A stretch of DNA of 64,000 nt, from positions 2,777,300 to 2,841,299 of the forward strand of contig OX639990.1 in the NCBI GenBank assembly GCA_951828535.1. Reading direction: 5' to 3'. Positions 35,579 through 50,775 of this stretch are shown in pieces (the first letter of the stretch is position 1; every line of letters begins with the position of its first letter). Below the pieces are notes generated by a model. It was not told the origin of the DNA and did not search any database. It saw only the letters and a list, made by a program, of their open reading frames with translations. The translations under genes were made by a program, and so were the position numbers. The DNA comes from an uncultured Candidatus Entotheonella sp. (GTDB lineage Bacteria; Tectomicrobia; Entotheonellia; Entotheonellales; Entotheonellaceae).

Positions 35579-35591
35579 TGGCACAGGCAGC

Positions 35592-35798
35592 ATGGCAATG
35601 GACGGCGAGATATCCTTCATACTGACGCCCCAAGCCGAGGGCGGATTCAATGTGACCTCTCCCGCGCTGCCGGAGTTGGTCACGGAAGGCGACTCCATAT
35701 CCGAGGCATTGGCCCATGTTGAAGATGCTCTCGCTACGGTCATTGAGCTATGCCAGGATCAGAGTCGGCCATTACCCCCTACCCCGCTTGCGCCTTGA
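35592..35798 (+). CDS. HicB-like small protein
   Basis: 68-residue protein with the HicB/partial RNase H-like core: ISFILTPQAEGGFNVTSPAL followed by PELVTEGDSISEALAHVEDAL. It begins 14 bases after rloB and is likely cotranscribed. There is no HicA toxin gene and no C-terminal DNA-binding segment, so it is either a stand-alone HicB-like protein or a remnant. Its last residues (PLPPTPLAP) are encoded inside the end of the displaced deacetylase fragment on the opposite strand, so its C-terminus may not be original. An ATG at 35598 is an alternative start. Confidence 0.65.
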   Translation: MAMDGEISFILTPQAEGGFNVTSPALPELVTEGDSISEALAHVEDALATVIELCQDQSRPLPPTPLAP

Positions 35799-36096
35799 CA
35801 TACCGGGCGATGTCGGCATGCGTGGCGAACCACACGCCGCTGTGTGAGCGCATGTGTCGGATCAGCTCGTCGAGAACGCTGACGTGCGAGCGGTGGCCGA
35901 TGATGTGCGGGTGCATGGTGAGCAGAAACAGGCCGCGCTCCGCGTAAGCCCCGTCGAACTCGCGCCGCCAGATTTCACCCACCAGCGAGGGCGCCGTGTA
36001 CTGGCGGATGGTGGTCACGCGGTCCATGCCAAAGTAGGGATAGTCGTCCCTGATCCACTCCACCGGCAACTCCACCACGCCGGTCGACTCGCCCTC
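35779..36096 (-). pseudogene. Displaced 3' end of a polysaccharide deacetylase gene
   Basis: About 105 codons corresponding to the C-terminal third of the intact deacetylase at 47755-48699. Aligning by eye gives about 24 mismatches over some 316 bases, near 92 percent. Protein identity is about 95 percent, ending at the same stop codon. Upstream of codon GES the frame runs on into unrelated sequence, so no catalytic NodB residues remain. It lies in the same orientation as the intact gene. The similarity begins exactly at the stop and ends abruptly near 36096, as expected of a junction. Confidence 0.85.
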
Positions 36097-36430
36097 AAGA
36101 CGTGCGATGCAAATTAACTTCCGAGCAGAGGGGTTTTTTTCCCTCTCCCTAGCCCTCCCGTGGAAACCAAGCATATGTGGCCAGATGGCCAGAATTCGTT
36201 GGTTTTTGGTTGTGTCAAGATTCGTTGGTTTCCATCTACCTGGGTCTAACCTGGAGGACCGGACGCCGGGGCACCGACGCGGAGACCTTCCACTGCTGCC
36301 CAAGGAGTCTCGTTTTCCGAAAGTCTCGGCTAACCTCCCACCCCCATGGACTGATCGTCGACGATGCCGGCAAAAGGCCGTAATCGCCCTACTACGTGGG
36401 ACGACACCGCCGCGACTTTCGAGTATGGGA
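36097..36430. other. Gap between displaced deacetylase end and hepT, with a short direct repeat
   Basis: No gene is visible. It contains ATTCGTTGGTTT twice, at 36194-36205 and 36220-36231 (26-base period), and a GGCCAGATGGCC palindrome near 36179. An A/T-rich run lies at 36130-36140. If the flanking deacetylase copies mark an inserted segment, this is its left margin, but I see no integrase or classical att site. Confidence 0.4.
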
Positions 36431-36772
36431 TCAGTCGGCGTCCGGAGGGAGCAGAGCTTGGAGCTCGTTGAGCAGAATGGGAATGTCCTGGTGGACGATC
36501 TACCAGATCAGGTTGAGGTCGATGTCGAAGTAACCGTGGACGACGCGGTTGCGCAGTCCGATGATCTGACGCCATGGGATTTGCGGATAAGAGCGGTGAG
36601 TGTCGGTCGTGATGCGAGAGGCGGCTTCGCCGATGATTTCGAGAACCTTGAGAATTGCGTTCTGGTGCAGGTCGCTGTGCTGGAACTGCGGATACGTGAG
36701 GTCTGCGGCGAAGGCGGTGGCCTTGCGAGCAGCCTGGAGCATGTCGATGAGGTACGAATCATCGTGCCGCAT
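36431..36772 (-). pseudogene. hepT: HepT-like toxin with an in-frame stop at codon 91
   Basis: HEPN-domain RNase toxin of the MntA/HepT pair. The active-site motif R-x4-H-x-Y is present as RNRVVHGY (about residues 75-82), preceded by KVLEIIGEAASRI. The frame ends at a TAG at 36500-36502 right after DIDLNLIW, but the same frame continues as IVHQDIPILLNELQALL to a second stop at 36431-36433, giving 113 codons, the family's normal length. The family normally has Gln at this place, so CAG to TAG is the likely change. A truncated 90-residue product keeps the catalytic motif but lacks the last helix. Confidence 0.75.
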
Positions 36773-37070
36773 AGATCAACTCTGCAGTGCTGAGGATGCT
36801 CTTGCGGCGGATAGGGTTTTGGCTCTGCTCGACCGCGGCACGGATGAGGAGGTCGACCGGTCTGCCAAAGAGCGTTTCGAGTTCGTCGGCGATGGTGACG
36901 AAATGGAGTCCGGGGGTTCGCCCAGGCTGGAACTCGACGAGAAGGTCGACGTCGCTGTCAGGTCCAAAGTCGTCGCGGAGCGCCGAGCCAAAGACGGCGA
37001 GACTGGCGATACCGTTGGCGCGGCAGAAGTCGGCTAAGCGGTCTTTGGGAATGACCAGGTTCGGGTTCAT
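36759..37070 (-). CDS. mntA: MntA-like antitoxin nucleotidyltransferase
   Basis: 103-residue minimal nucleotidyltransferase. The signature GS-x10-D-x-D reads FGSALRDDFGPDSDVDLLVEF (about residues 29-49), and the third acidic residue lies in RPVDLLIRAAVE. In studied pairs MntA AMPylates the tyrosine of the HepT R-x4-H-x-Y motif and so blocks the RNase. The start ATG at 37070 has AGGATG nearby; the frame is open further up without support. Its 3' end overlaps hepT by 14 bases, as usual for this pair. It looks intact although its toxin gene is interrupted. Confidence 0.83.
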   Translation of the reverse strand: MNPNLVIPKDRLADFCRANGIASLAVFGSALRDDFGPDSDVDLLVEFQPGRTPGLHFVTIADELETLFGRPVDLLIRAAVEQSQNPIRRKSILSTAELIYAAR

Positions 37071-37428
37071 GAGCGGCATCCTGTTCATTACGGTGTGAAG
37101 TGTTGCGGCGATTCTATCAAGGTGTGGTCGAGCCGAGCAACGGCGTGGTGAGAACACGTGCAGGATAGCCCCGAGACAGAAGGCGGCTTGCTCGTTAATT
37201 CGAACGGCATGCACAGCACAAAGACACGCTGTTACGATTCAGAGCAAAATGGTGTGTTTTTGTGCCGGAGTTCCTTGGTTGAAAAGGCACATACAAGATG
37301 AATCTGGCACTTTTTCGGACAGACATTCTTGCATTGGTGGCCCGTATCGTCTGTTTGCACACTCCCCCACGGAGACGTGTGATACGCATTACGACGAAAG
37401 ACAACCCGCGCAACGCTCCCGGACTGTC

Positions 37429-37448
37429 ATTCCCGCGAACGCGGGAAT
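37429..37448. repeat. REP-like palindrome ATTCCCGCG-AA-CGCGGGAAT
   Basis: Perfect nine-base arms with a two-base loop, in the context GTCATTCCCGCGAACGCGGG. Same repeat class as 4979-4999. Confidence 0.75.
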
Positions 37449-37574
37449 CCGGTGGCCTCAGCCCACCGAAAAACCTCTGGACTCCCGGCCCTGATCGGAG
37501 TCGAGGGCAGGCCCCGGCCGGTAAGCCGTATTGATTCGAACGTGCTCTAAAGATGCGTCACATCACATCAGTAA

Positions 37575-37604
37575 GGGGAAAACCCACCGTCGCTGGTTTT
37601 CCTT
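37575..37604. ncRNA. Stable hairpin, possible part of a structured RNA
   Basis: GGAAAACC (37577-37584) pairs with GGTTTTCC (37595-37602) over a ten-base loop, with two G-U pairs extending the stem. A second hairpin, AGGGCGC (37664-37670) with GCGCCCT (37677-37683), lies 60 bases downstream. I cannot match them to a known RNA family. Confidence 0.3.
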
Positions 37605-37793
37605 GAGGCAGCCTGCTTCCCAGCGACCTTCGCAGCACCGAAAGCGCCAGAATTGCGTGCGGCAGGGCGCACATCGGCGCCCTCAGCGTAGGGGAATCAC
37701 CGTTCGTTATGAGATGGCGACCAGCGTTGCGGAACTGCTGGCGGGTGCGAATGCGGGATGGTCGCGGAGGGAGGTGCCATCCTGAAAAAAGCC

Positions 37794-37821
37794 TTGACCT
37801 TTTATTGATCTGTGATATGGG
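37794..37821 (+). promoter_or_regulatory. Probable promoter of the cupredoxin-Sox-cbb3 operon
   Basis: TTGACC at 37794-37799, a 16-base spacer and an extended -10 (TGATATGGG, hexamer 37816-37821). The first gene starts about 82 bases downstream. Confidence 0.5.
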
Positions 37822-37902
37822 GGTACGAAATGCCTATCTATAGATGGTCGGGTGTCAGTCGTGCTGGTGCTCTGGCAAGCTGGAAAGAAGGAGTTAGGGT
37901 AC

Positions 37903-38619
37903 ATGAGATGCTTGAGAATAGGAATCGGTGTGCTGGTGGTGCTTGCCAGCGTGCTTCCGGTCCAATCGTATCAGGAAGTCGTGGTTGCAGACGGCGGAAC
38001 GATTTCCGGGAAGGTGATCTACCAAGGAGCCGTACCCACCAGGAAGATTATCCCCACGAAGGACCGGGATGTCTGTGGCGGCATCCGCGATGAAGCCCGT
38101 GTCGTCGTTGGACCGGACAAAGGCGTCCACGGCGCTTTCGTCTACCTCCAGGACGTAGCGCAAGGCAAGGCATGGGCACAGGCAGAAGACCCCTATGAAC
38201 TCAACAATGAGCAGTGCAAGTTCTGGCCGCACGTCCAGGTCATTCCCGTCAAGTCGGAACTGGACATCATCAACTCGGATCCGGTGCTGCATAATACCCA
38301 CGGTTTTCTCGGCCGGCGGACGGTGTTCAACGTGGCCTTGCCGGACCAGGGGATGCGCATCAAGAAGCGGCTCAGGCGTCCGGGCATCGTGCGGGTGGAA
38401 TGCGATGCGCACGGCTGGATGCTGAGCTGGATTTACGCCGCGGAGAATCCCTACTACGCCGTCACGACAGCGGACGGCACGTTTACCATTACGGATGTGC
38501 CGCCGGGAACCTATACTCTGGTCGCATGGCAAGAGTATACGGGCGCTCTGGAAATCCCGGTGACCGTCAGCGAAAAGGAGGTGATAGAGCTTCCCATTGA
38601 GTTGAAGAAGGCTAACTGA
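37903..38619 (+). CDS. Exported cupredoxin-like protein with carboxypeptidase-regulatory-like domain
   Basis: 238-residue exported protein, started at an ATG after AAGGAG. A short signal peptide (IGIGVLVVLASVLPVQS) leads. The central part holds a blue-copper-like site: first His in VLHNTHGF (about residue 130), then Cys, His and Met in VECDAHGWM (C-x2-H-x2-M, about residue 166). The last 50 residues (TFTITDVPPGTYTLVAWQEY) are a carboxypeptidase-regulatory-like beta domain. This layout is known in methylamine-utilisation-like proteins near respiratory genes. As first gene of the operon it is a good candidate for a periplasmic electron carrier to the cbb3 oxidase. Confidence 0.8.
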   Translation: MRCLRIGIGVLVVLASVLPVQSYQEVVVADGGTISGKVIYQGAVPTRKIIPTKDRDVCGGIRDEARVVVGPDKGVHGAFVYLQDVAQGKAWAQAEDPYELNNEQCKFWPHVQVIPVKSELDIINSDPVLHNTHGFLGRRTVFNVALPDQGMRIKKRLRRPGIVRVECDAHGWMLSWIYAAENPYYAVTTADGTFTITDVPPGTYTLVAWQEYTGALEIPVTVSEKEVIELPIELKKAN

Positions 38620-38649
38620 CCCAGGCTCTGGTTTAAGGAGGCAAATACC

Positions 38650-39765
38650 ATGAACGGATCTCAGGGCACGTATCGCAATACGGATTCGGAAGAACGTCCC
38701 GACCGTTCGCTCGGGATCACCCGCCGCACTTTCCTGCACAAATCGTTTCTGGCCGGTGCTGCGGGCGCTGCGACCTTTGGATGGTTTCCCCTCATCAACA
38801 CCATTGACTTGGCTTTTGGTGCCGAGTCATTCAAGTTTGCCTGGCTTTCCGATACCCACCTTTATCCGAAAGACGTGAATACCCGTTTTGTCGAAAAGAC
38901 CGAACGCGCCGTGAAGGAAATCCAGGCCATGCAGCCTGCCGCCGATTTCCTGATTTTCGGTGGCGACCTGGCCCAACTCGGCGACCCGGTGGAACTCGAC
39001 CTTGGGAACGAGATTCTCAAGCAGGTAACCATCAACAAGGTTTTCATTCCAGGGGAACATGACTGGTACCTGGATATGGGCGCGAAATGGGAGCAGCTCT
39101 TTGGCAAACCACCGTGGAGCTTCGATCATAAAGGCGTGCGTTTCATTGGGCTCGATACCGTAAGCCGCGCTCCGGATTACTGGTCGATCAAAAAGATGAG
39201 CCCAAAGGAGCGCATGGGTCACATGGCGACGTTGGACGGCTCGGTAGCCGGGCCTTGGGCTGGCGTCGGCCATGACCAGCTTGCCTGGCTCAACAGCGCC
39301 CTGGCGGATTTGGCGCAGGACGCACCGGTCATCGTCTTCAGCCATAACCCGCTCTATGAGTATTACCCACCGTGGAACTTCTGGGTGCGGGACTGGCGCG
39401 AAGTCCACGAAATCCTGCAACCGTTCTCGAACGTCACCAATATCCATGGCCACACCCATCAGGTGCTTTACAATGAGATCGGCAACCTGCGCTCCATCGG
39501 CATGCTCGCCACCTCATGGCCCTGGCCGTATGCGCCTGAAGGCGTGCCGATCCTGACCACACCGCATATCCGGGCCGACCCGGGTGACCACTTTGACGGC
39601 GTCGGCTGGGCCCAATTGGACGTGACCGCCGCCGGACGGGTCGAGCATGAGTACATGATGTGGCGCAAGGATATCCTGGCGGAAGCCCCGTGGGATTCCG
39701 GCACGGGCGACAATGCCAACCAGGTCCTGCGCCCGCGTATTGCTGACCGTCAGTGGCCTTATTGA
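38650..39765 (+). CDS. Tat-exported metallophosphoesterase
   Basis: 371-residue calcineurin-like phosphoesterase with a twin-arginine signal (ITRRTFLHKSFLAGAAG, residues about 23-39). Dimetal motifs in order are SDTHLYP (about residue 67), FGGDLAQLG (about residue 102), PGEHDWYLDMG (about residue 135), FSHNPLYEYYP (about residue 230) and HGHTHQ (about residue 266). The third motif has Glu where the family normally has Asn (GNHD). TAAGGAGGCAAATACC sets the start. SoxB of thiosulfate oxidation is a larger member of this fold; beside SoxYZ-like and cytochrome genes, a SoxB-like role is possible but not proved. Confidence 0.85.
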   Translation: MNGSQGTYRNTDSEERPDRSLGITRRTFLHKSFLAGAAGAATFGWFPLINTIDLAFGAESFKFAWLSDTHLYPKDVNTRFVEKTERAVKEIQAMQPAADFLIFGGDLAQLGDPVELDLGNEILKQVTINKVFIPGEHDWYLDMGAKWEQLFGKPPWSFDHKGVRFIGLDTVSRAPDYWSIKKMSPKERMGHMATLDGSVAGPWAGVGHDQLAWLNSALADLAQDAPVIVFSHNPLYEYYPPWNFWVRDWREVHEILQPFSNVTNIHGHTHQVLYNEIGNLRSIGMLATSWPWPYAPEGVPILTTPHIRADPGDHFDGVGWAQLDVTAAGRVEHEYMMWRKDILAEAPWDSGTGDNANQVLRPRIADRQWPY

Positions 39766-39781
39766 GCAAAGGGGGATGGCT

Positions 39782-40240
39782 ATGAAGAGGAAGCGGTACG
39801 CGCTCATCGTGCTGGGGGCAACCCTCAGCCTGTCACTGGTCGTCACCGCCGTGCTTAACCAGGCTCTGGCGCATAAGGCAAAACACACGCCGGAACAGCT
39901 TCAGGCGTTCCAGGACGTGCTCATGGAGCAAGTCAGACTGGGTGACCTGCTCTTTCATGGCGACGGCGCCACTGCGCAACAGATGGGGGTTAACCTTTCC
40001 AGGACCGGGATGGCCTGTGCCATGTGCCACCCCTTTGCGTCGGATACGCACCCCCACGAGTTCCCCAAATTCCAGGAACAGATGAACGCCTTTGCCACCC
40101 TGCGTGACATGATCAACTGGTGCATCGAGAAACCGAACGAGGGGGAAATAATTGGCACTGACTCGGAAGCGATGAAGGCCCTGGAGGCTTATATCTACTG
40201 GTCAAACCAGGGGTCGAAGCTGGATACGGGCCGACACTGA
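39782..40240 (+). CDS. Monohaem c-type cytochrome, SoxA/SoxX-like
   Basis: 152-residue exported cytochrome with one haem site, ACAMCHPF (about residue 80). The signal peptide is YALIVLGATLSLSLVVTAVL, ending near ALAHK. The tail RDMINWCIEKPNEGE followed by AMKALEAYIYW resembles the end of SoxA haem domains, and includes an extra Cys. GGGGG precedes the ATG at 39782; an ATG at 39776 is an alternative. It lies between the phosphoesterase and the SoxYZ fusion and probably passes electrons toward the oxidase. Whether it can load sulfur on SoxY, as SoxAX does, is unknown. Confidence 0.8.
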   Translation: MKRKRYALIVLGATLSLSLVVTAVLNQALAHKAKHTPEQLQAFQDVLMEQVRLGDLLFHGDGATAQQMGVNLSRTGMACAMCHPFASDTHPHEFPKFQEQMNAFATLRDMINWCIEKPNEGEIIGTDSEAMKALEAYIYWSNQGSKLDTGRH

Positions 40241-40271
40241 GCCAGCCCTTTACCCAATGGGGAGATGCCGT

Positions 40272-41183
40272 ATGCGCGGCGGGGTCATGCAGTGGCAACC
40301 CGGGGACCCCGGAAAGTGCGGTGCCAAGTCGCAGGGTATGACGAGGCGCGCGGTGTTTCGTCTCGCCTCACGCCTGGCGGCAACCGGTTTGCTGATGCAC
40401 GGGAAAGGAGGGCAACGGTTTGAAGCTTTTGCAGGGGAGTTGCGTTCCCCTCAAGACCCGCGCCATCCTACCCCCTTCGAGCAACTGCATCTCCCCATGC
40501 TAAAAGTGCCCTCCTTTACGAATAGTGGCTCCCATGTGCCGATTGTGGTCGAAATGGCACATCCCATGGAGCCGGATCATTACATCACCAGCCTGAACGT
40601 TCTGAACCCCAGCGACCCCATTCCATCCAAGGGTATCTTGCACCTGACCCCTGGCAGTGGGCAAGCCTACCTGGGCATGCAGGCACGCATGCATAGTGGT
40701 TCCTCTTCGGTCGTGGCCGTGGCCGAGTGCAACCAGCACGGGCGCTGGGTTGCGCAGCGCTCGGTTACGGTTTCCGAAGACGCCGGGGGTTGTGCGACGG
40801 CGACGGATGAAGAGATCAGCGAGCTCGTGCAGCCTCGCTTTCGCCCGCCGGTCATTCGCATTCCCAAGCTGGTGCGAGGCCAGCGGATCACGCCGGGAGA
40901 GGTCATCCGGGTGCAGCTTAAACTTCTGCATCCAAACCGCACGGGTTTGGCTTGGCGCGATGGAGCGTTTTACCAGGCCGTGGAGAATCCCCTCTACCTC
41001 AAGAATCTGCAGGTGTTCTACGGGGATCGTTTGGTGAGCCGGTACGAGATGACACCCGCTCTTAGTGATAACCCCCTCATTGCCCTGAAGCTCAGGGTGG
41101 TCGAGGAGGGGTCTGTACGTATGGTGATCACCAACAGCCACGATCAGCAATTTCAGGCGCGACACGAGATCAAGTGGTCCTGA
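40272..41183 (+). CDS. SoxY-SoxZ fusion, sulfur carrier-like protein
   Basis: 303-residue exported fusion. A Tat-like signal (TRRAVFRLASRLAATG, residues about 24-39) leads. Residues about 75-175 are SoxY-like (VPIVVEMAHPMEPDHYITSL, GILHLTPGSGQAYLG), closing with DAGGCATATDE, where Cys174 stands at the place of the SoxY carrier cysteine (normally GGCGG at the very C-terminus). Residues about 195-303 are SoxZ-like (IPKLVRGQRITPGEVI, FYGDRLV, and VRMVITNSHDQQFQ). It resembles the fused SoxYZ carriers found beside quinoprotein dehydrogenases. GGGGAG sets the start. Placed directly before ccoN, it may feed an inorganic or C1-derived sulfur intermediate to this respiratory module. Confidence 0.83.
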   Translation: MRGGVMQWQPGDPGKCGAKSQGMTRRAVFRLASRLAATGLLMHGKGGQRFEAFAGELRSPQDPRHPTPFEQLHLPMLKVPSFTNSGSHVPIVVEMAHPMEPDHYITSLNVLNPSDPIPSKGILHLTPGSGQAYLGMQARMHSGSSSVVAVAECNQHGRWVAQRSVTVSEDAGGCATATDEEISELVQPRFRPPVIRIPKLVRGQRITPGEVIRVQLKLLHPNRTGLAWRDGAFYQAVENPLYLKNLQVFYGDRLVSRYEMTPALSDNPLIALKLRVVEEGSVRMVITNSHDQQFQARHEIKWS

Positions 41184-41202
41184 GAGGGACGATGAGGGAA
41201 AG

Positions 41203-42594
41203 ATGGCCGAGGAGATTGCATCCACAGAGGACATAGCGCTCAGGAATGATGAGCTGATCGATAAGAACCTGATCAGGCAATGGCTTCTCTGGGGGTTCTT
41301 TTGGCTCCTGTTCGCCCCGGTGGTGGGCGTCATCGCTTCAACGAAATTCAATTATCCGGATTTCCTGGGCGCAAGTCCCTTTCTGACGTTCGGCCGGATT
41401 CGCCCCATTCACGTCAATGGGGTGATCTTCGGGACCTTTTCAACCCTGTTCATCGGTCTGTGCTACTACATCCTGCCGCGTCTCGCGGGCATCCGGGTCT
41501 ACAAAGAACGTTGGGGATATGGGTTCCTGTGGCTATGGAACCTGACGCTGGCAGCGGGCTTCGTCTCTCTTGCCATGGGCCACAACCAGGGCCTGGAAGC
41601 CTCCGAGTTCCCGCTGCTGATCGATATCGTGCTGTGGGTGGCGCTCTTGGGCATCACGGTGCAGTTCCTGGTCACCGTAGCGCGACGGCAAGAGCCCCGC
41701 ATCTACGTGAGCCTGTGGTATCTGGTTGCCGCGTTCATCTGGACGGATATCAACTGGGTGCTGGGCAACTTTATCATTCCCTACAGCATTCCCGGGATCA
41801 ACAACGCCGCGCTCCACGGCCTCTACATTCACTACGTGGTCGGCCTGTGGATCACGCCGGCGGGCTACGTGCTGATCTACTATTTCCTGCCGGCAAGCGT
41901 CCAGAACCCCATCTACAGCCATAAGCTGTCGCTCATTGGCTTCTGGTCCCTCGCCTTCTTCTATCCCTTTGTCGGCATTCATCATTACTTGTTCAGTCCG
42001 ATCGCCGATTGGGCCGAGACCATCGCGATCATTACCAGCATGCTCCTCATCGTCCCGGTGTGGACCGTCCTCCAGAATTTCTTCGGGACGATGATCGGCT
42101 GTTGGCAGTCCTTTGGCCGGAACTTGCCGGCAAAGTTCCTGATTACGGGAAGCCTGATGTACCTCATCGGCTGTTTGCAAGGCTCGACCGAAGCGCTCAG
42201 GTCGATGCAGGAACCCACGCACTTTACGGATTTCGTCATCTCCCATTCGCATCTGACTGTTTTCGGCACCTTCGTGCTGTGGACCGTGGGCGGCATGGTC
42301 TATGTCTGGCCTCGGGTTACCGGGGGCGAATTGTGGAGTTTTCGTCTTGGAAACTGGTCGTTTTGGCTGATTACGTTGGGAATTGCGTCCATGGGGCTGA
42401 TTCTGACGGCACAAGGACTGCAGCAGGGTTATATGTTGATGTCGCGGGTCGAGTGGGTCGACTCGATGGTGTCTATGAAACCGTATTGGTGGTTCAGGAC
42501 CTTTTCGGGCATTTCCATGGACGTCGGCCTGGCCCTGTTGCTCATCAACCTGGTGTGGTCGACGCGGCCTCGCCTGACGCCGGCCGCTGCCTAG
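41203..42594 (+). CDS. ccoN: cbb3-type cytochrome c oxidase subunit I
   Basis: 463-residue haem-copper oxidase subunit of the C family, the oxygen-reducing and proton-pumping core. Haem and copper ligands can be placed: His in IRPIHVNGVIFG (about residue 70), the helix ALHGLYIHYVVGLWITP (about residue 205), the CuB pair in FVGIHHYLFSP (about residue 263) and the late pair HSHLTVFGTFVLW (about residue 347). About twelve transmembrane helices are visible and length is normal for CcoN. It starts 20 bases after the SoxYZ fusion and is followed 14 bases later by the tri-haem partner. cbb3 enzymes have high oxygen affinity. Confidence 0.95.
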   Translation: MAEEIASTEDIALRNDELIDKNLIRQWLLWGFFWLLFAPVVGVIASTKFNYPDFLGASPFLTFGRIRPIHVNGVIFGTFSTLFIGLCYYILPRLAGIRVYKERWGYGFLWLWNLTLAAGFVSLAMGHNQGLEASEFPLLIDIVLWVALLGITVQFLVTVARRQEPRIYVSLWYLVAAFIWTDINWVLGNFIIPYSIPGINNAALHGLYIHYVVGLWITPAGYVLIYYFLPASVQNPIYSHKLSLIGFWSLAFFYPFVGIHHYLFSPIADWAETIAIITSMLLIVPVWTVLQNFFGTMIGCWQSFGRNLPAKFLITGSLMYLIGCLQGSTEALRSMQEPTHFTDFVISHSHLTVFGTFVLWTVGGMVYVWPRVTGGELWSFRLGNWSFWLITLGIASMGLILTAQGLQQGYMLMSRVEWVDSMVSMKPYWWFRTFSGISMDVGLALLLINLVWSTRPRLTPAAA

Positions 42595-42607
42595 CGGGGA
42601 ATCATCT

Positions 42608-44257
42608 ATGAAACGCGCGCGCACGGTAGCAGTGGTGGCTGGCTTCGGATTTATTACCCTGGCCGTTTTTGTGCAAGGCATCCTCCCGGCTCTGATCCGC
42701 GAATCCCAGGGTGATCAGGTCACCATGGTGGTACGGACGGAGTTGGGAGAACTGAAATGGCTCTGGCATCAGGCGCAGGACTATACGGAACTGGAACGGC
42801 TGGGACGCCAGGTCTATGTCCGCGAGGGGTGCTGGTACTGCCACTCGCAATACGTCAGGCCGGTTACGGGTGAGGACCAGCGCTGGGGCTTTGTTTCGCA
42901 GGCCGGGGAATACGCCTACGATCTGCCGCACCTGTTCAGCACCCGGCGCATTGGCCCGGATCTTACCCGGGTTGGCCTCAAGTACGGGGACGACTGGCAC
43001 TTCGCGCACCACTGGGATCCGAGATTGGTGGTGCCCGACTCCATGATGCCGGCCTTTCCCTGGTTGTATGACCAGATAACCGTGGCCGTGCAAGAACAGG
43101 ACGGCGTGCTGCAACTCGTGGAAGACCCGGGGCTGCGGCAGTTCTTCACGTTCAATGACGCACACGAGATCAATTTGATCCCCAATCCGGACGGTCTGGC
43201 TTTTGCCAGACAACGAGATGGCGTGCCGACGCTGTCCGTCGAGCTGCTGCCGGAACCGTTTTCTCAGCCGGCAGTGACCATCGTTGCCCCGACTGAGGAA
43301 GCCCGGGCAGTGGTAGCCTATATCCAGAAGCTGGGGATGAATCGCGGCCAGTGGCGGGACAAATTCGAGCCGCAGCTTATCTTCGTTTCCGAACTATCGA
43401 TCCCGGCTTCACCGGAATGGGTCGAGGCGGGCAAGGCGGTTTACACACGGCGCTGTGTTGGCTGCCACGGTGTCAATGGAGATGGCAATGGTCCGGCTGC
43501 CACCTTCATGGAACAGCGGCCACGTGACTTCCGGGACGCCATTTTCAAGTTCCGGGTTACCCCGGAAGGGTCGCTACCCACGGATGGGGACCTGTTCCGG
43601 ACGATCACCCGCGGGGTGCGGGGCACAGCCATGCCAAGCTGGCATGAGGTACCGGAAAAGGATCGCTGGGCAGTGATTCAATACATCAAAACGTTCTCCC
43701 CCTTCTTCGAGGATGAGTGGCCCGATCCGCCCATCTATATCCCGCCGCCGCCGCCGCCGAGCGCCGACATCGTGGCGCTGGGTCAAGAAACGTATGTCAA
43801 CACAAAGTGTTGGCAATGCCACGGCGGTCCGGGGGAAAAGGACGGCGAACCGTTCACGTTTCCTTGGGGCGAAGGGCCGTCGGCGGACGAATTGACCGAT
43901 GACTGGGGATTTCCGATCGAGGCGACGGATCTCACCACCGGAATTTTGAAGTCCGGCCCCACGGTGGCCGACATCTTCCGGACCATGACCACGGGCCTCA
44001 ATGGCACGCCGATGCCCTCGTTCAGACAGGCGCGTAGCGAGGAGCAGCGCTGGGCCATTGCTTACTACGTAGCCAGCCTGTCCGCCTATACCGACACCCT
44101 GAGCAGCGCCAAGCTCGATCTTCCCACTGCCGTCAAGGCGGCGTTGAATGCGCCGGATTTGCAGACACCCAGCTGGCGCATGGCTTTTGACCCGGCCAAG
44201 ATGCAGACGATCATGGCCAATCCAACGTCGAAATCGCACCTCGGCATTGTGGAGTAG
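42608..44257 (+). CDS. ccoO: Tri-haem CcoO-cytochrome c fusion subunit
   Basis: 549-residue membrane-anchored cytochrome. One N-terminal helix (VVAGFGFITLAVFVQGILPA) leads to a CcoO domain with GCWYCHSQYVRP (about residue 75), GPDLTRVGLKYGDDWH and the haem Met in PDSMMPAFPWLY. Two further c-type domains follow: RCVGCHGVNGDGNG (about residue 282) and KCWQCHGGPGEKDG (about residue 401), joined by a proline-rich hinge of six consecutive Pro. Canonical CcoO has one haem in about 200-230 residues and CcoP carries two, so this looks like CcoO and the CcoP haem part in one chain. No separate ccoP is present. Confidence 0.92.
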   Translation: MKRARTVAVVAGFGFITLAVFVQGILPALIRESQGDQVTMVVRTELGELKWLWHQAQDYTELERLGRQVYVREGCWYCHSQYVRPVTGEDQRWGFVSQAGEYAYDLPHLFSTRRIGPDLTRVGLKYGDDWHFAHHWDPRLVVPDSMMPAFPWLYDQITVAVQEQDGVLQLVEDPGLRQFFTFNDAHEINLIPNPDGLAFARQRDGVPTLSVELLPEPFSQPAVTIVAPTEEARAVVAYIQKLGMNRGQWRDKFEPQLIFVSELSIPASPEWVEAGKAVYTRRCVGCHGVNGDGNGPAATFMEQRPRDFRDAIFKFRVTPEGSLPTDGDLFRTITRGVRGTAMPSWHEVPEKDRWAVIQYIKTFSPFFEDEWPDPPIYIPPPPPPSADIVALGQETYVNTKCWQCHGGPGEKDGEPFTFPWGEGPSADELTDDWGFPIEATDLTTGILKSGPTVADIFRTMTTGLNGTPMPSFRQARSEEQRWAIAYYVASLSAYTDTLSSAKLDLPTAVKAALNAPDLQTPSWRMAFDPAKMQTIMANPTSKSHLGIVE

Positions 44258-44260
44258 ACC

Positions 44261-44416
44261 ATGATAGAGCAGATCACCTTTTTCGAGTTCCTGGTAGCGT
44301 TCTGTATGGGTCTGGCCGCATGCTGCTTTTTCCTCTGGGCCATCATGATCGGGGCGTTCAGGAACGTTGAGGACGTCAAATACAAAATCACGGAGATTGA
44401 GCGCCATGAGCCGTGA
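44261..44416 (+). CDS. ccoS: CcoS-like cbb3 oxidase assembly protein
   Basis: 51-residue protein with one transmembrane helix (FLVAFCMGLAACCFFLWAIM) followed by GAFRNVEDVKYKITEIE, the characteristic CcoS tail (short Gly-x-Phe turn, acidic residues, then a basic segment). CcoS is needed to insert haem and copper cofactors into cbb3 oxidase. It starts three bases after the tri-haem subunit and overlaps the next gene by 11 bases. Confidence 0.78.
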   Translation: MIEQITFFEFLVAFCMGLAACCFFLWAIMIGAFRNVEDVKYKITEIERHEP

Positions 44417-44732
44417 GCAAACGTCCCCGGAAGACACGCATGACCCGGTAGAAGTGTACGCCGGAGGGGAAATCAAGGCGTACCACGGCAAGGTGAACAG
44501 GTGGCTCCTGGTGGTATACGCCCTCCTGTTCGTCTGGGCGCTCTATTATCTTTTTGGGCCTTTTGAAGGTCTGACGCCAACCTTCGGCTACTGGGGCGGG
44601 CTGGGACCCGGGCTCGTCGGCGCCGATGGCGATAGCGCCTTGGGACGCAACGGGGTGATCGCCTTTGGCATCATGTTGGCTGGCGTGGTCGCTTTTTTTG
44701 CCTGGGTTGCCATCCTGGCCTGGCGGAAATGA
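44406..44732 (+). CDS. Small two-helix membrane protein with CcoP-like N-terminal anchor
   Basis: 108-residue protein. Residues about 15-55 (YAGGEIKAYHGKVNRWLLVV, then a helix ending YYLFGPFEGL) resemble the membrane anchor of CcoP (EYDNPLPRWW-type lead and a single helix), but there is no CxxCH. A second helix (VIAFGIMLAGVVAFFAWVAI) closes the protein. I infer that it supplies the CcoP anchor that is missing from the tri-haem fusion, so the subunit has been rearranged. It overlaps ccoS by 11 bases. Confidence 0.65.
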   Translation: MSREQTSPEDTHDPVEVYAGGEIKAYHGKVNRWLLVVYALLFVWALYYLFGPFEGLTPTFGYWGGLGPGLVGADGDSALGRNGVIAFGIMLAGVVAFFAWVAILAWRK

Positions 44733-44752
44733 TCGTCGGAGGAGAGACGCCA

Positions 44753-44866
44753 ATGAAGCTCGGCGAATGGCTTTTGTTTGGTCTGGCGTGGTTGGCGCTT
44801 CTGGTGCTTCTCTCGGATGCCCTGTTCAACATCCTCAGTGCGCTGGCCAGGGGTTCCCTGTACTAA
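44753..44866 (+). CDS. 37-residue single-helix protein of the cbb3 operon
   Basis: Tiny membrane peptide MKLGEWLLFG... ending SALARGSLY, with one hydrophobic helix of about 20 residues. CGGAGGAGAG lies just upstream of the ATG, and it sits snugly (20 bases and 2 bases) between its neighbours in the operon. Size and position recall small extra subunits of cbb3 oxidases such as CcoM or CcoQ, but sequence resemblance is too weak for a name. Confidence 0.6.
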   Translation: MKLGEWLLFGLAWLALLVLLSDALFNILSALARGSLY

Positions 44867-44868
44867 CC

Positions 44869-45540
44869 ATGCTGCTAAACAGCGCCCTGCTCCTGTTGGC
44901 CGCTGCCGGGGGCTCCCTGCACTGCCTCGGGATGTGCGGCGGGTTTGTCGCGGGCATCAATGCCCTCGGTGCTGGCACGTCGCGTCTTCGCGGCCTCGCC
45001 GGCCATATGGTCTACCACGGCGGCAGGCTGACGGGTTACATGTTTCTGGGCGCTGTCGCCGGCGCCTGCGGCCACCTCCTGACCGCCCCGGCCCCGTTTC
45101 TCCACACCGTGATCGATCTCGTCGCCGGCCTGTTCGTTTTGTTTACGGGTCTGTGTCTGGCCGGTTTCCTGCCGGCGCAAAATCTCGTGCAACTGACCGG
45201 CACGGAAAGCTTTACCCGCCCGCTTGGCGCTCTGCTCCGCGTCAAGCGTCTCAGTTCCGCGCTCTACCTCGGCCTGTTCAATGGCTTTATCCCCTGTCCC
45301 CTGATCGCCGCCTTCCTGGCCCAAGCAGCGGCCACCGGCTCACCACTGCCCGGCGCCTTCACGATGGCGCTCCTGGTCATGGGCACGGCTCCCGGCATGA
45401 TTCTGCTGGGTTATGTAACTCTGAGCCGTGAGACCCGGGGCAAAGCCGTGCAAGCCGCAGGGGTTCTCCTGGCTATTCTGGGGGTCATGACGACCCTGCA
45501 CGCCGTTGGCTGGGCTCCCTCGCCGTTCGGGGCACACTGA
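44869..45540 (+). CDS. TauE/SafE- or DsbD-like membrane protein of the cbb3 cluster
   Basis: 223-residue membrane protein with six hydrophobic helices. [14 protein letters not shown] near the N-terminus and [18 protein letters not shown] (about residue 133) are the Cys-containing motifs of the SafE/UreH-type (DsbD_2-like) family often encoded between ccoS and ccoI. It is thought to work in copper or thiol traffic during oxidase assembly. The start lies two bases after the preceding small gene, and the TGA overlaps the ccoI ATG by one base. Confidence 0.82.
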
Positions 45541-47639
45541 TGCCCGCAACGGACTCCCCGCATCGCTATTGTGTCCACTGCCGTCTGCCGCTGCCTGTCC
45601 GTCCCTACCGTCGCAACGTGGCAGGAGAGGACATGGCCTTTTGCTGCTCGGGCTGCAGTCTGGTGTATCAGATTACCGGACAGCTTGGGGAAGCGGGGGA
45701 GGCCTCCTTCTGGCTGGCGAAGCTAGGCCTCGGCTGCTTTTTTGCCATGAACGTCATGACCCTGAGTCTTCTCCTGTACTCAGGCTACCTCACCGAAATC
45801 GACCCTGAGATTGTGCCCAAAATTGCCTATCTCAGCTTCGCCCTCGCCACGCCGGTGATGTTCATCCTCGGCTGGCCTTTCGTAAAGCACGCTTTGAGCG
45901 AAATTGCTGCCCTGTCTTTCGGTATGGACAGCCTCATCGCCCTTGGAGCCGTGTCGGCCTATGTGGCGTCAACCTATGCCACCTTTACCGGCAATCCCCA
46001 GATTTATTTCGACACCGCAACGATGATCCTGGTGCTGGTCACCTTGGGACGCTTCCTCGAAGCCTCTGCGAAGGCCAGGGCCTCCGAAGCCCTTGAGCAT
46101 CTCCTTGACCTCGCGCCGCAGGAGGCTGTCGTGGTCGAAGCCGGACAGGAGCATCGGGTGGCGATAGCGGCCTTACGTGTTGGCGATCAGGTGCTCATTC
46201 GTCCTGGGGAACGTATCCCGGTCGACGGCAAGGTGATCGAGGGAGCGGCTGATGTCGATGAATCGACACTCACCGGGGAGGCAACGCCGGTTAGCAAAAG
46301 CCGCGGCGACCCCGTCATGCGGGCAACGGTGACGATGGCCGGGCGCCTCATCGTGGAAGTTACCCACAGCGCCGACGACACGATGTTTGCGCAGGTGGTG
46401 CGGCTTATGGAGGAAGCCCAGGCGGCACACGGGCCGTTACGCCGCCTGGTCGATCGCATCGCGGCCATCTTCGTGCCTGCTGTTGTGGGCCTCGCCGGTC
46501 TGACCGGTTTCCTGCGATTGCCGGACGGATTGGAGTCAGCTCTACTGAGTTCCCTGTCAGTCCTCCTCATCGCCTGTCCCTGTCCTTTGGGGTTGGCCAC
46601 CTCCTTGGCTACCTGGGCCGGATTGGGTCGAGCGGCTCCCAGCGGGGTGCTCATCCGCTCCGGCGACGCCCTGGAATCCCTGGCTGGCCTTAAAACTCTC
46701 TATTTTGACAAAACGGGCACGCTGACAATGGGACAGGCCGCCCTGCAGGCGGTGCAGGTTGAGCCTGACACGTTTCAGAATGCCTGGCTCAGCGCCTGCG
46801 CATCGGTCGAAGCGTACTCTGAGCACGCCTTGGGAAAAGGACTCGTTGAGGCGGTCACGGCCAGGGGACTACCCTTGCATCCCATACTGGATTTCAAGGC
46901 CTCGCCGGGTCTGGGTGTCGAGGGCATGGTTGCCTGCCCTGGTGAGTTACCGTCTCGGGTGGTGGTGGGCAACGAACGTTTTCTCAGCCAGCAAGGCATC
47001 GCCCTTGCAGACAAGCTCCGGGAGAAGAAAAGGCGCTACGAAGCTGCCGGATTGACGGTCATTCTTGGCGCCTGGAACGAGCAGGCGCAGGGACTGGCAG
47101 CCTTTGGCGATCAGGTCCGACCCGAAGCGCCGGAAGCCATTGAGGCACTCAAGGGGCTGGGCCTCGAACTCCGTCTCGCCAGCGGTGACAACGAGGCGGC
47201 CACACAGCGTGTGGCTGCAATGCTTGGTATCCCAAGGCTGGCGGCGTCTTTGCTTCCCTCGCAGAAGGCCGAATTGGTCCGGGAGGAACAGACCCGAGGG
47301 GCTGTGGGGGTCATTGGGGACGGCATCAACGACGCACCTGCCTTGGCCACGGCGTCGCTAGGCATCGCCATGGGATCAGGCACAGACCTGGCCAAGGAGA
47401 CAGCGGATGTCAGCATTCTGCGCAATGATCTGCGACAGATTCCGTGGCTCATCAGGCTGGCGAAGGCAACCCGCTGGACCGTCCGCGGCAACCTCATCTG
47501 GGCGTTCTGCTACAACGCGATTGGGCTGATTCTGGCCGTACAGGGGATTTTGACCCCGATCCTGGCCGCCCTGGCGATGGTTGTCAGCAGCCTTTTCGTC
47601 GTCTGTAACTCGCTGCGGTTACAGAAGCGGCACATTTGA
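45540..47639 (+). CDS. ccoI: CcoI-type copper-translocating P1B ATPase
   Basis: 699-residue heavy-metal P-type ATPase supplying copper to the cbb3 centre. It has the membrane metal motif [10 protein letters not shown] (about residue 342), the phosphorylation site FDKTGTLT (about residue 390), actuator [10 protein letters not shown] (about residue 242) and the hinge [12 protein letters not shown] (about residue 592). In place of the usual GMTCxxC domain, the N-terminus has CVHCRLPLP and [11 protein letters not shown] (about residue 36), a zinc-ribbon-like lead seen in CcoI/FixI proteins. CPC suggests copper. It is the last gene of the operon. Confidence 0.92.
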
Positions 47640-47754
47640 CCGCCCTTTGGTAACACGAACAGGCCGGGTGAACCGCCCCCGGAACAGCGGGGAGCGACCC
47701 GGGCCGAAGCCGATACAGGTACCTATGTTCTTCCTGATGTATGACGGCTGTCCT

Positions 47755-48699
47755 CTACCCCGCTTGCGCCTTGACGTACCGGGCGATGTCGGCATGCGTC
47801 GCGAACCACACGCCGCTGTGCGAGCGCATGTGCCGGATCAACTCGTCGAGAACGCTGACGCGCGAGCGGTGCCCGATGATGTGGGGATGCATGGTGAGCA
47901 GGAAGAGGCCGCGTTCCGCATACGCGCCGTCGAACTCGCGCCGCCAGATTTCACCCACCAGCGAGGGCGCCGTGTGCGGGCGGATGGTGGTCACGCGGTC
48001 CATGCCGAAGTAGGGGTAATCGTCCTTGATCCACTCCACCGGCAGTTCCACCACGCCGGTCGGCTCGCCGTCCTGCAGGATTTCGTAGGGCTCGTCGTCG
48101 CCCATCAGGGAGGAATCGTACAGCAGGCCCATGTCGCGGATGATGCTCAGGGTGGCGTCGCTGAAATCCCAAGACGCGGTACGCAGCCCCACGGGCGCGG
48201 TGCCGGTGAGTTTCTCCAGCACCTCGGCAGCGCGCCGGGTCAGGTCCCGCTCGTCAGCCGCTTCGAGCAGGCTGTTGCGCTCGTGAATCCAGCCGTGCAG
48301 CCCGATTTCGTGGCCCGCCGCGGCAATGTCCGTCACGTCATCCGGGTGCAGCAGCGCCGACACCCCGGGGACGTAGAAGCTCGCCGGAATGTCGTAACGC
48401 TTCATTAGCCGCAGGATGCGCGGCAGACCGGCGCGAGAGCCGTATTCACCCTGCGCCAGGAGCGCCGGGGACGTTTTGCCGTCCCGCAGCGTCAGCGTCT
48501 CCTGATCGACGTCGAATGACAGCGCCACAGCCACTTGTGCGCCACCGGGCCACACGTCGGGTCGCAGCGCTTTGCCGGCCCGCACCTGGTTGACGGCCTG
48601 CCGCCAGCGCGCCTCGGGCCAGCGCCAGGAAGCATCCGGCCCGGCGCCGGAGGCGGCGCCTTCCACGATCGCGGGTTGTTGGGGTGTGTCGTGTTGCAT
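47755..48699 (-). CDS. Polysaccharide deacetylase family protein (NodB homology domain)
   Basis: 314-residue NodB-fold carbohydrate esterase or amidohydrolase. The first motif is ALSFDVDQET (Asp-Asp pair, about residue 60), the metal-binding motif H-x3-H is GHEIGLHGWIHE (about residue 130), and the third is RTASWDFSD (about residue 170). It has no signal peptide. Such cytosolic NodB proteins include allantoinase-like (PuuE) enzymes that open cyclic amides, so the substrate need not be a polysaccharide. GGAGGAATCCCACC sets the start. Its last third has a relative copy at 35779-36096. Confidence 0.87.
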   Translation of the reverse strand: MQHDTPQQPAIVEGAASGAGPDASWRWPEARWRQAVNQVRAGKALRPDVWPGGAQVAVALSFDVDQETLTLRDGKTSPALLAQGEYGSRAGLPRILRLMKRYDIPASFYVPGVSALLHPDDVTDIAAAGHEIGLHGWIHERNSLLEAADERDLTRRAAEVLEKLTGTAPVGLRTASWDFSDATLSIIRDMGLLYDSSLMGDDEPYEILQDGEPTGVVELPVEWIKDDYPYFGMDRVTTIRPHTAPSLVGEIWRREFDGAYAERGLFLLTMHPHIIGHRSRVSVLDELIRHMRSHSGVWFATHADIARYVKAQAG

Positions 48700-48781
48700 G
48701 GTGGGATTCCTCCAGGTTGTGGGGCAAGTCGCGTTGTCTCGTCACTTGGTTCTGCAATGGGTCGGCAGCCTCGTCGTCAAG

Positions 48782-48810
48782 TTGACGGTTCTGCCAAAAA
48801 CCGATACAGT
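48782..48810 (+). promoter_or_regulatory. Sigma-70 promoter for the peroxiredoxin gene
   Basis: TTGACG at 48782-48787, exactly 17 bases, then TACAGT at 48805-48810. The peroxiredoxin start lies 71 bases downstream. Confidence 0.65.
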
Positions 48811-48880
48811 TTGCGGCATTCCAAACCCGCCTTTCTACCCCAGGCACACGGGGAAATTTATCCATACAGGAGGAGTGGTT

Positions 48881-49351
48881 GTGAGTGTACAGGTAGGGCA
48901 AGAGGCACCGGATTTTACGCTCAAGGACACCGAGACGCAGGACGTTGCGCTGAGCGGTTTTCGCGGTCAGAAGAACGTCGTGCTGCTGTTCGTGCCGTTC
49001 GCCTTTACGGGCGTGTGCACCAACGAGCTGTGCTCGGTGCGGGACAATCTCAGTACGTATAGCCAGCTCGACGCCGAGGTGTTGGGCATCAGCGTCGACA
49101 GCCCCTTTGCCCAGAAGCAGTGGAAAGAAAAAGAAAACCTCAACTTCACCCTGGTCAGCGATTTCAATCGCGGCGTCAGCAAAGCCTACGGCGCCCAGTT
49201 TGACGACCTGATGGGCTTCTCGGGCGTGGCCAAGCGCGCCGCTTTCGTCATCGACAAGGCCGGCAAGGTGCAGTACGCCGAGGTCCTTGAAAGCCCCAGG
49301 GACCTGCCGAACTTCGACAAGATTCAAGAAACGCTGCAGGGTCTTGCCTAA
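48881..49351 (+). CDS. Peroxiredoxin (AhpE-like, thioredoxin fold)
   Basis: 156-residue thiol peroxidase that reduces hydrogen peroxide and organic peroxides. The peroxidatic Cys lies in PFAFTGVCTNELC (about residue 45), with the preceding Thr and a nearby second Cys; the catalytic Arg is probably the one in VAKRAAFVID (about residue 120). GTG is the start, with AGGAGGAG eight bases upstream and a clear promoter before that. TNELC and the C-terminus match the one-Cys AhpE/Prx subgroup. It stands as a single transcript unit between two minus-strand genes. Confidence 0.9.
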   Translation: MSVQVGQEAPDFTLKDTETQDVALSGFRGQKNVVLLFVPFAFTGVCTNELCSVRDNLSTYSQLDAEVLGISVDSPFAQKQWKEKENLNFTLVSDFNRGVSKAYGAQFDDLMGFSGVAKRAAFVIDKAGKVQYAEVLESPRDLPNFDKIQETLQGLA

Positions 49352-49492
49352 CCCGACAGGGAGCGCTTCAGCCTCTCCGGAGAGATTCGCGCTAACGCCT
49401 CGGCGGCCACGTCATCATACCCGGTCCCTTCTGGCCGCCTTCTCCAAGTCCACCATCTTGCCAACTCAATAGGTCGCTGCGCGGGTGACGCT

Positions 49493-50662
49493 TCAAATGA
49501 CCCGGGATTCTCGCAGTGCGGCGATTTCCTGCGCGTCGTAACCGGCGGCGGCGAGAATCTCTTCGGTGTGCTGCCCCAAAACCGGCGCGGCGCGGCGCAC
49601 CGAACCGGGGGTGGCGCTCAGTTTGAGCGGCAGGCCAAAGAGGGACAGGGTGCCCAATGCGGGGTGGGCGACCTGCTCGACCAATTCATTGGCTAATACT
49701 TGCGGGTGCGCGAACATGTTGTGAATGGCGCCGGCCGCGGCCCTCGGCACGCCGGCCTCCTCCAGTTTCGCCGCCCATTCGTCGGCGCTCTTGGTTTGGA
49801 ACACGGCCTCCAGCCGCCCCCGCAGTTCCTGGGCGTGGGCACTGCGCTTGCGCATGGTGTCGTAGCGCGGATCGCCGGCCAGATCGGTCAACTCGACGGC
49901 GTCGCACAGGGCCAGCCAGAATTTCTGGACGTGGGCCGAGATGTACAGGTGTCCTTCGCGACAGGCATAAAGGCCGGAAATGCCGGTGTCCAGGTCGCGC
50001 TCGTTGTCGAGCGGCTCGTGCTCGCTGGCCACGTAGCGGCCCGCCTGCATGGACAGCGCCGCGGCCAGCAGTGACGTATCGACCCGTTGCCCCTCGCCGG
50101 TGCGCTCGCGTACGAACAGGGCCAGCATGACGCCGTAGGTGGCGAGCATGGCGGCGAAGAAATCGACAACGGAGCCGCCGACAAGCATCGGGCGTCCCAG
50201 AGAACGTCCCTGCGCCGCAGCGATGCCGGTCATCGTTTGCAGCACCTGGTCGAAACCGGGTTTGCCGGACAGCGGCCCGTTGGACCCATAGCCCGAAACG
50301 CCGCAGTAGATGAGCTTCGGCTGCCGTTTCCGCAGGTCGTCGTAGCCGATTTGCAGCCGTTCTGCGGTGTCCGGGCGGAAATTCTCGACAACAACGTCCG
50401 CCTGGCGCACCAGGCGATACACGACCTCGCGGCCGGCGGCCTGTTTGAGATCGAGCCGCAGCCCCCGCTTGTTGCGATTCACACCCTCAAACAGTCGGCT
50501 GCCATTGGGCATGGAAGAGGGAAAGGCGCGCGTCGGGTCGCCGCTGTGGGCTTCGATCTTGATCACGTCGGCACCCATGTCGGCCAGCATGACGGGGCAG
50601 AACGATCCGGCAATGTAACTGGTAAAGTCGAGAACGGTAATTCCTTCCAAAGGCGTCGGCAT
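49493..50662 (-). CDS. CaiB/BaiF family (class III) CoA-transferase
   Basis: 389-residue class III CoA-transferase that moves CoA between a CoA-ester and a free acid. The opening LEGITVLDFTSYIAGSFCPV followed by MLADMGADVIKIE is characteristic. The catalytic Asp is probably in GKPGFDQVLQTMTG (about residue 140), and VGGSVVDFFAAMLA follows. The C-terminal part ends in LGQHTEEILAAAGYD, the usual close. AAGGAGG lies before the ATG. The acid substrate is not identified. No acyl-CoA partner gene is adjacent. Confidence 0.92.
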   Translation of the reverse strand: MPTPLEGITVLDFTSYIAGSFCPVMLADMGADVIKIEAHSGDPTRAFPSSMPNGSRLFEGVNRNKRGLRLDLKQAAGREVVYRLVRQADVVVENFRPDTAERLQIGYDDLRKRQPKLIYCGVSGYGSNGPLSGKPGFDQVLQTMTGIAAAQGRSLGRPMLVGGSVVDFFAAMLATYGVMLALFVRERTGEGQRVDTSLLAAALSMQAGRYVASEHEPLDNERDLDTGISGLYACREGHLYISAHVQKFWLALCDAVELTDLAGDPRYDTMRKRSAHAQELRGRLEAVFQTKSADEWAAKLEEAGVPRAAAGAIHNMFAHPQVLANELVEQVAHPALGTLSLFGLPLKLSATPGSVRRAAPVLGQHTEEILAAAGYDAQEIAALRESRVI

Positions 50663-50687
50663 CGCTGGTTTGGCCTCCTTGATAGCC

Positions 50688-50723
50688 TACCTCCTCACGG
50701 GAGAGGGCTGGGGTGAGGGGGAG
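50688..50723. repeat. Dispersed G/C-rich palindrome
   Basis: CTCCTCACGGGAGAGGGCTGGGGTGAGGGGG-type sequence, a member of the family seen at 10507-10682 and near 54 kb. It lies in the divergent gap before the histidine phosphatase. Confidence 0.55.
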
Positions 50724-50775
50724 AAACGAGACGCGGCCCGCCACTGCCTTACACTGACAGGAGGACGAAGGGCGC

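Follow-up and report, generated by a model that had tools for sequence, protein, structure and literature searches.

A Sox-like carrier module conserved beside a cbb3 oxidase in Candidatus Entotheonella and Methylomirabilota

The closest described counterparts of the locus analyzed here are the Sox system (SoxXA, SoxYZ, SoxB and SoxCD), the quinoprotein dehydrogenase-associated carriers of TIGR04557, superoxide reductase (SOR) with desulfoferrodoxin center II (PF01880), and the cbb3-type cytochrome c oxidases (ccoNOP, ccoGHIS). In TsdA, a Cys heme ligand carries a thiosulfonate intermediate (PMC4423706), and Hyphomicrobium cannot carry out Sox-dependent sulfur oxidation without a relative of the YeeE/YedE transporter family (PMC11582611). 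The locus lies in an uncultured Candidatus Entotheonella sp., on contig OX639990.1 of assembly GCA_951828535.1; the window is the whole analyzed stretch of 64,000 nucleotides (positions 2,777,300 to 2,841,299). An earlier sequence-only reading of this DNA described a Sox-like carrier module wired directly into a rearranged cbb3 oxidase operon. The components are of known kinds. What appears to be new is their conserved combination with a cbb3 oxidase, and a SoxY domain that keeps the SOR ligand set. We found no account of a Sox-like module conserved with cbb3 in the open-access literature, and none there linking SoxY or SoxYZ with desulfoferrodoxin, neelaredoxin or superoxide reductase.

The genes occupy the plus strand from 37903 to 47639, with intergenic gaps of at most 30 nt according to the open reading frame (ORF) list and the window sequence. 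Family scans give the order cupredoxin, metallophosphoesterase, SoxA/TsdA-type cytochrome, SoxYZ fusion, CcoN, CcoO, three small membrane proteins, a DsbD_2/SafE-type protein and a copper P-type ATPase, so the gene contents, order and tight spacing read earlier from the sequence are borne out. A carrier profile was searched against 95 Methylomirabilota genomes and five from the small phylum to which the window belongs, and neighborhoods were compared. The carrier is present in 31 of the 95 and in two of the five, hits to the second, canonical-type SoxY/SoxZ being left out. The order cupredoxin-phosphoesterase-cytochrome-SoxYZ-ccoN-ccoO recurs in the same-family genome G002 (L039) and at 16 loci of 15 Methylomirabilota (Rokubacteria) genomes, which confirms that the four upstream families co-occur with ccoN elsewhere. 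Direct adjacency of carrier and ccoN is seen in at least 17 genomes. The same order is probable across a contig break between L011 and L093; this link is unproven and is left out of the 17. Among the partial loci, the contig ends inside the carrier gene in L125 and L128, and L101 starts inside the phosphoesterase. With the window-type ccoN subfamily set at 62% identity or more, 28 of the 95 Methylomirabilota genomes carry it, 15 with the carrier immediately upstream and 13 without a carrier. Wherever both are present, they are adjacent (15/15 Methylomirabilota genomes). The table of carrier against ccoN reads 15, 7, 13 and 60 (Fisher p 1.7e-5), a descriptive value, as the related genomes are not independent.

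Coupling is not the same as dedication. Seven Methylomirabilis-type genomes hold the four module genes without ccoN; in five of them di-heme cytochrome c peroxidases are neighbors, and in some a YVTN beta-propeller is. The sequence-only reading had counted orthologous clusters unlinked to ccoN as evidence against itself, and these are such clusters. The coupling that it proposed stands, both as physical linkage and in evolution, and the strict dedication of the module to the oxidase is ruled out by these seven genomes together with the 13 that have the oxidase alone. As far as upstream DNA was available, none of the four module genes was found at the 13 carrier-free ccoN loci, and of the 20 genomes with a close copy of the phosphoesterase, 19 also have the carrier. 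Hence the four genes form an independent unit, which one lineage has coupled to cbb3 and another to peroxidases. Methylomirabilota also hold a second group of fused SoxYZ proteins, more distant in sequence (L113-L124, L126, L127), whose usual neighbors are YeeE-type transporters, YVTN propellers and cytochromes c instead of cbb3. At two loci (L099, 14.8-17.8 kb; L104, 7.7-10.6 kb), a second ccoN-ccoO pair lies just upstream of the cupredoxin gene, which places the module between two oxidases.

The carrier is the most unusual part of the module. A single frame matches Pfam SoxY (1.7e-17), SoxZ (2.5e-11) and Desulfoferrodox (5.2e-9), and all three families match in 35 of 35 aligned members. The Desulfoferrodox match is not a property of canonical SoxY, since six control SoxY proteins, with SoxY scores of 98 to 133 bits, fall below the Desulfoferrodox cut-off. 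Profile comparison with solved structures returns superoxide reductase (E 1e-6), SoxZ (1e-6) and SoxY (7e-6), and aligns the SOR ligands with His78, His102, His108, Cys158 and His161 of the carrier. The AlphaFold model is confident across both domains and places the ligand loops between strands as expected. Its best fold matches are SoxY of P. pantotrophus (Z 13.7), superoxide reductases (Z 12.4) and SoxZ (Z 10.4); unrelated Ig-like folds score at most 9.6, below all three. In sequence, fold and ligand set, the SoxY domain has a dual SoxY/SOR character, which was overlooked when the DNA was first read. The gammaproteobacterial relatives carry a SoxB-like 5'-nucleotidase between soxY and soxZ, plus SCO1. 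In L018 (4-14 kb), and similarly in L016-L024, the cluster contains Sulf_transp, a YVTN propeller, a SoxY ending in GGC, the SoxB-like 5'-nucleotidase, SoxZ, a cytochrome c, DUF302, SCO1 and a thioredoxin-domain protein; the SOR-type motif is present in SoxY of these clusters as well.

The carrier arm is conserved more strictly than this site. Cys179 of the GGC motif, called Cys174 in the sequence-only reading and renumbered here from the ATG at 40257, is invariant in all 41 fused relatives, as that reading had expected of close homologues. The arm Cys is internal in the fused carrier and not C-terminal as in classical SoxY. Unfused relatives from Gammaproteobacteria, Nitrospirota and Anaerolineales terminate exactly at it, as expected of a swinging arm. 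The SOR-type residues are kept at H102 in 39/39, H108 in 38/39, C158 in 39/41 and H161 in 35/41 relatives, His161 being lost in five fused relatives (L107, L109, L110, L111, L126); His78 is kept in most relatives. Because these ligands decay in some relatives and the arm Cys is never lost, the arm appears to be the core function and the metal-type site a widespread, dispensable addition.

The partner proteins retain their active residues. The cytochrome matches SoxA-TsdA_cyt-c (PF21342, 3e-9) and has a single heme motif, C79AMCH83; both the mono-heme SoxA/X-like cytochrome and the SoxY-SoxZ fusion were thus correctly named at the outset. Its Cys114 aligns with C96 of TsdA, a heme-ligand Cys, and with the SoxA Cys in solved structures, and all but one of 24 relatives (23 of 24) retain it, so that a Cys-ligated heme of SoxA-family type is predicted. 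Together, Cys179 and Cys114 support what would be a Sox-like chemistry. The phosphoesterase is Tat-exported and matches Metallophos (1.6e-12); all its metal motifs are kept (D68xH70, D106, GE136H137D138, H232, GH268xH270), and GEHD replaces GNHD/E in all 21 relatives that cover the motif. It is not SoxB: it lacks a SoxB model match and the 5'-nucleotidase C-terminal domain, and its GEHD is invariant. Of the SoxB fold first assigned to it, only the broad fold holds, the nearest enzymes being of the CpdA/GpdQ type. Its AlphaFold model is poor (pLDDT 59) and was not used. The type-1 copper ligand pattern of the cupredoxin (His130, Cys167, His170, Met173) is invariant or nearly so in 21 relatives.

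The oxidase, too, keeps its ligand residues. CcoN matches COX1 (3.8e-70) and the 6xkw CcoN (E 1e-50), and its H70, H210, Y254, H260, H261, H348 and H350 are invariant in 19 relatives; Tyr254 is presumably the cross-link Tyr. CcoO joins FixO to two cytochrome c domains in one protein, with CxxCH motifs at residues 75, 283 and 401, as the earlier description of a tri-heme fusion had it. The SafE-like protein matches DsbD_2 (1e-33) and belongs to the ordinary maturation equipment of cbb3 operons. The gene assigned to CcoS fits in position and pattern and has no Pfam match. The 108-residue product of 44406-44732, between the CcoS-like and SafE genes, is a possible heme-free membrane anchor of a split CcoP, because the di-heme part is fused to CcoO.

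We favor, with moderate confidence, a periplasmic Sox-like sulfur-oxidation carrier module coupled to a respiratory heme sink. The His/Cys-ligated heme of the SoxA/TsdA-type cytochrome would oxidatively load a reduced sulfur compound, most likely thiosulfate, onto the fused carrier at Cys179 of its mobile arm. The phosphoesterase would then hydrolyze the carrier-bound product, in a SoxB-like role without being SoxB. The cytochrome and the type-1 copper protein would pass the electrons on to the hemes of the tri-heme CcoO, and CcoN would reduce oxygen. This loading chemistry is modeled on established work on SoxA and TsdA; we infer the substrate, the order of the remaining steps and the electron route from the anatomy of the proteins. 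A sulfur substrate is suggested by the homology to SoxA/TsdA and SoxYZ and by YeeE/SoxT-type transporters near related loci: three ccoN-linked loci (L100, L107, L109) and many loci of the paralogous carrier group have YeeE/YedE-type transporters nearby. The SoxB-like 5'-nucleotidase of the gammaproteobacterial relatives adds to this sulfur context. The Entotheonella genome also encodes a second, canonical SoxY/SoxZ pair (L038, G000:C1:812000-828000), beside a flavocytochrome c sulfide dehydrogenase-like flavoprotein; the window carrier is therefore an additional, specialized one. L038 also holds cytochrome c7, NrfD-like and ferredoxin-like proteins, and is conserved in a genome of the same genus (L040).

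Several points weigh against this reading. The SoxA homology of the cytochrome is weak against solved structures (E ~0.01). Canonical SoxB was not found in the Entotheonella genome (no TIGR04486 match), and SoxB, SoxX and SoxCD are absent from the cluster, as the sequence-only reading had noted for full-length SoxB, a separate SoxX and SoxCD. The phosphoesterase has the Metallophos domain only, and neither SoxX nor SoxCD was found in 33651-51000 by family scan and ORF list, no genome-wide search having been made for them. Three Rokubacteria possess both the module and SoxB, and the module cannot, then, be explained simply as a Sox system that lacks SoxB. The seven genomes with the module but no ccoN, and the 13 with the oxidase alone, count on the same side.

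A further proposal concerns a possible function of the metal-type site. The SoxY domain might be a metalloprotein in which a SOR-type mononuclear iron center shares the domain with the sulfur-carrying arm and acts redox-wise on arm-bound sulfur, for example in a SoxCD-like oxidation, electrons then passing through the cupredoxin to the cbb3 oxidase. We regard this as a tentative and rather doubtful extension. If true, the protein would be the first sulfur carrier that doubles as a redox enzyme, and would be evidence for a common ancestor of SoxY and superoxide reductase.

Other explanations of the module were weighed against the Sox-like carrier module. In the first, the module would act like the metallohydrolase and fused SoxYZ-like carrier associated with PQQ- or lanthanide-dependent alcohol dehydrogenases, and serve as an electron or sulfur relay for a methanol-type dehydrogenase. 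Among NCBIfam models, TIGR04557 does fit the carrier best in 35 of 35 members, and the Entotheonella genome (G000) has 11 hits to PQQ-dependent alcohol dehydrogenases. In the ped cluster, a carrier of this type is accompanied by a SoxH-like hydrolase and a beta-propeller (PMC12997753), and here, too, propellers recur. However, the window carrier reaches the cut-off of no NCBIfam model, scoring 81.7 bits on TIGR04557 against a required 140. A true TIGR04557 protein from Azospirillum (L226) has no SOR-type motifs, and where the module has its phosphoesterase, the neighbor is a metallo-beta-lactamase-type zinc hydrolase. Moreover, G002 and G062 carry the full module and cbb3 without a PQQ dehydrogenase match, and none of the clusters examined, the window cluster included, contains a PQQ gene. 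We consider such a relay improbable.

An oxygen-stress function is distinctly improbable. Here the SoxY domain would be a periplasmic superoxide reductase, and the neighboring cbb3 oxidase or cytochrome c peroxidases would remove oxygen or peroxide. The ligand set and fold of the carrier agree with this, as do the di-heme peroxidases that flank the module in the Methylomirabilis-type clade, and no other Desulfoferrodox-family protein was found in the Entotheonella genome. However, the Lys beside the first SOR His (EKHVP) is replaced by Leu77 in the carrier (QLHLP), and it is precisely in the peroxidase-linked clade that His78 is Tyr. Some ccoN-linked members lack His161, whereas no member lacks the arm Cys. 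An oxygen-stress role would also leave the phosphoesterase and the SoxA-type cytochrome unexplained.

A vestigial or loosely assembled operon, with Sox-related proteins kept only for electron transfer (cupredoxin and cytochrome as donors) or as neighbors by shared descent without shared function, fits the occurrence of module and oxidase each alone, the relatedness of the genomes and the degenerate L110, where the cytochrome is broken and a phosphoesterase hit is absent, but is markedly unlikely, as the active residues of all four proteins are kept across 44-80% identity and two phyla, and the strongly diverged L112 (phosphoesterase ~45% identical) retains all parts beside ccoN in rearranged order.

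The coordinates of the cluster and its flanks are collected in the table. The cupredoxin gene probably starts at the ATG at 37903, which is preceded by GGAG; 37852 is a GTG further upstream. The whole cluster is flanked by a 300-nt direct repeat whose copies lie 11976 bases apart, and the deacetylase-like gene on the left is truncated. A genome of the same genus (G001) is without the fused carrier and without a window-type ccoN. In view of the repeats and this absence, the cluster could be a segment that was inserted or lost. No synteny around it was seen in 400 kb of a same-genus genome, fetched at a guessed position, and scans of the cluster for promoters and terminators gave counts near or below those of shuffled sequence.

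Table. Features of the module, the oxidase operon and their flanks (window coordinates)
Feature	Position	Strand	Basis
Direct repeat of 300 nt, left copy (polysaccharide deacetylase-like gene fragment)	35776..36075		92% identical to right copy
Exported cupredoxin with C-terminal carboxypeptidase-regulatory/fn3-like domain	37903..38619	+	Type-1 Cu ligand pattern
Tat-exported calcineurin-like metallophosphoesterase	38650..39765	+	Metallophos match and metal motifs
Mono-heme SoxA/TsdA-family cytochrome	39782..40240	+	SoxA-TsdA_cyt-c match, heme motif
SoxY-SoxZ fusion carrier, Tat motif R30R31	40257..41183	+	SoxY, SoxZ and Desulfoferrodox matches
SOR-type ligand span: His78 (40488), His102 (40560), His108 (40578), Cys158 (40728), His161 (40737)	40488..40739	+	Alignment
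Codon of carrier-arm Cys179 (GGC motif)	40791..40793	+	Alignment of fused relatives
CcoN, catalytic subunit of cbb3 oxidase	41203..42594	+	COX1 match, heme/CuB residues
CcoO with C-terminal di-heme extension	42608..44257	+	Three heme motifs in total
Small membrane protein, CcoS-like	44261..44416	+	Position and pattern only; no Pfam match
Small membrane protein, 108 residues, two predicted membrane stretches	44406..44732	+	ORF call; no Pfam match
Membrane peptide of 37 residues	44753..44866	+	ORF call
SafE/DsbD_2-type membrane protein	44869..45540	+	DsbD_2 match
CcoI-type copper P1B ATPase	45540..47639	+	P-type ATPase match
Direct repeat of 300 nt, right copy	47752..48051		Within longer deacetylase-like ORF 47755-48699, - strand

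The module is a candidate means by which bacteria that lack a full Sox system could oxidize sulfur at low oxygen. As a conserved unit in groundwater and soil lineages (such as Rokubacteria and Methylomirabilis relatives), it ties a Sox-like carrier to a high-affinity oxidase or to cytochrome c peroxidases, and its dual SoxY/SOR carrier allows a direct test of where SoxY came from. The module shares with the Sox system a carrier with a GGC arm Cys, a SoxZ partner, a SoxA-family cytochrome, a hydrolase of the metallophosphoesterase fold, Tat/Sec export and the presumed delivery of electrons to c-type hemes. Unlike that system, it has SoxY and SoxZ fused, a mono-heme cytochrome without SoxX, a different phosphoesterase family and no SoxCD, and it adds a cupredoxin, SOR-type ligands in SoxY and an operon shared with a terminal oxidase. 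With the TIGR04557 carriers it has in common the SoxY-SoxZ fusion, the internal GGC arm, and hydrolase and propeller partners, and it differs in its sub-threshold score, in the SOR-type motif that the true member lacks, in a phosphoesterase where that member has an MBL-type hydrolase, and in the absence of PQQ dehydrogenase neighbors. Superoxide reductase and desulfoferrodoxin center II have the same Ig-like fold and, by alignment, a His-His-His-Cys-His set in HxP, HPMxxxHYI and CNxHG motifs that the window carrier has in full and some of its relatives only in part; the carrier is without the Lys of EKHVP, adds a C-terminal Sox arm and a SoxZ domain, and is Tat-secreted. The oxidase resembles cbb3-type enzymes in a CcoN with all its ligands, CcoO, a copper ATPase and a SafE-like protein. 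It departs from the typical arrangement in that the di-heme part is fused to CcoO with no separate CcoP, a known variant (NCBIfam NF011054), and in that a presumed donor module lies upstream within the same operon.

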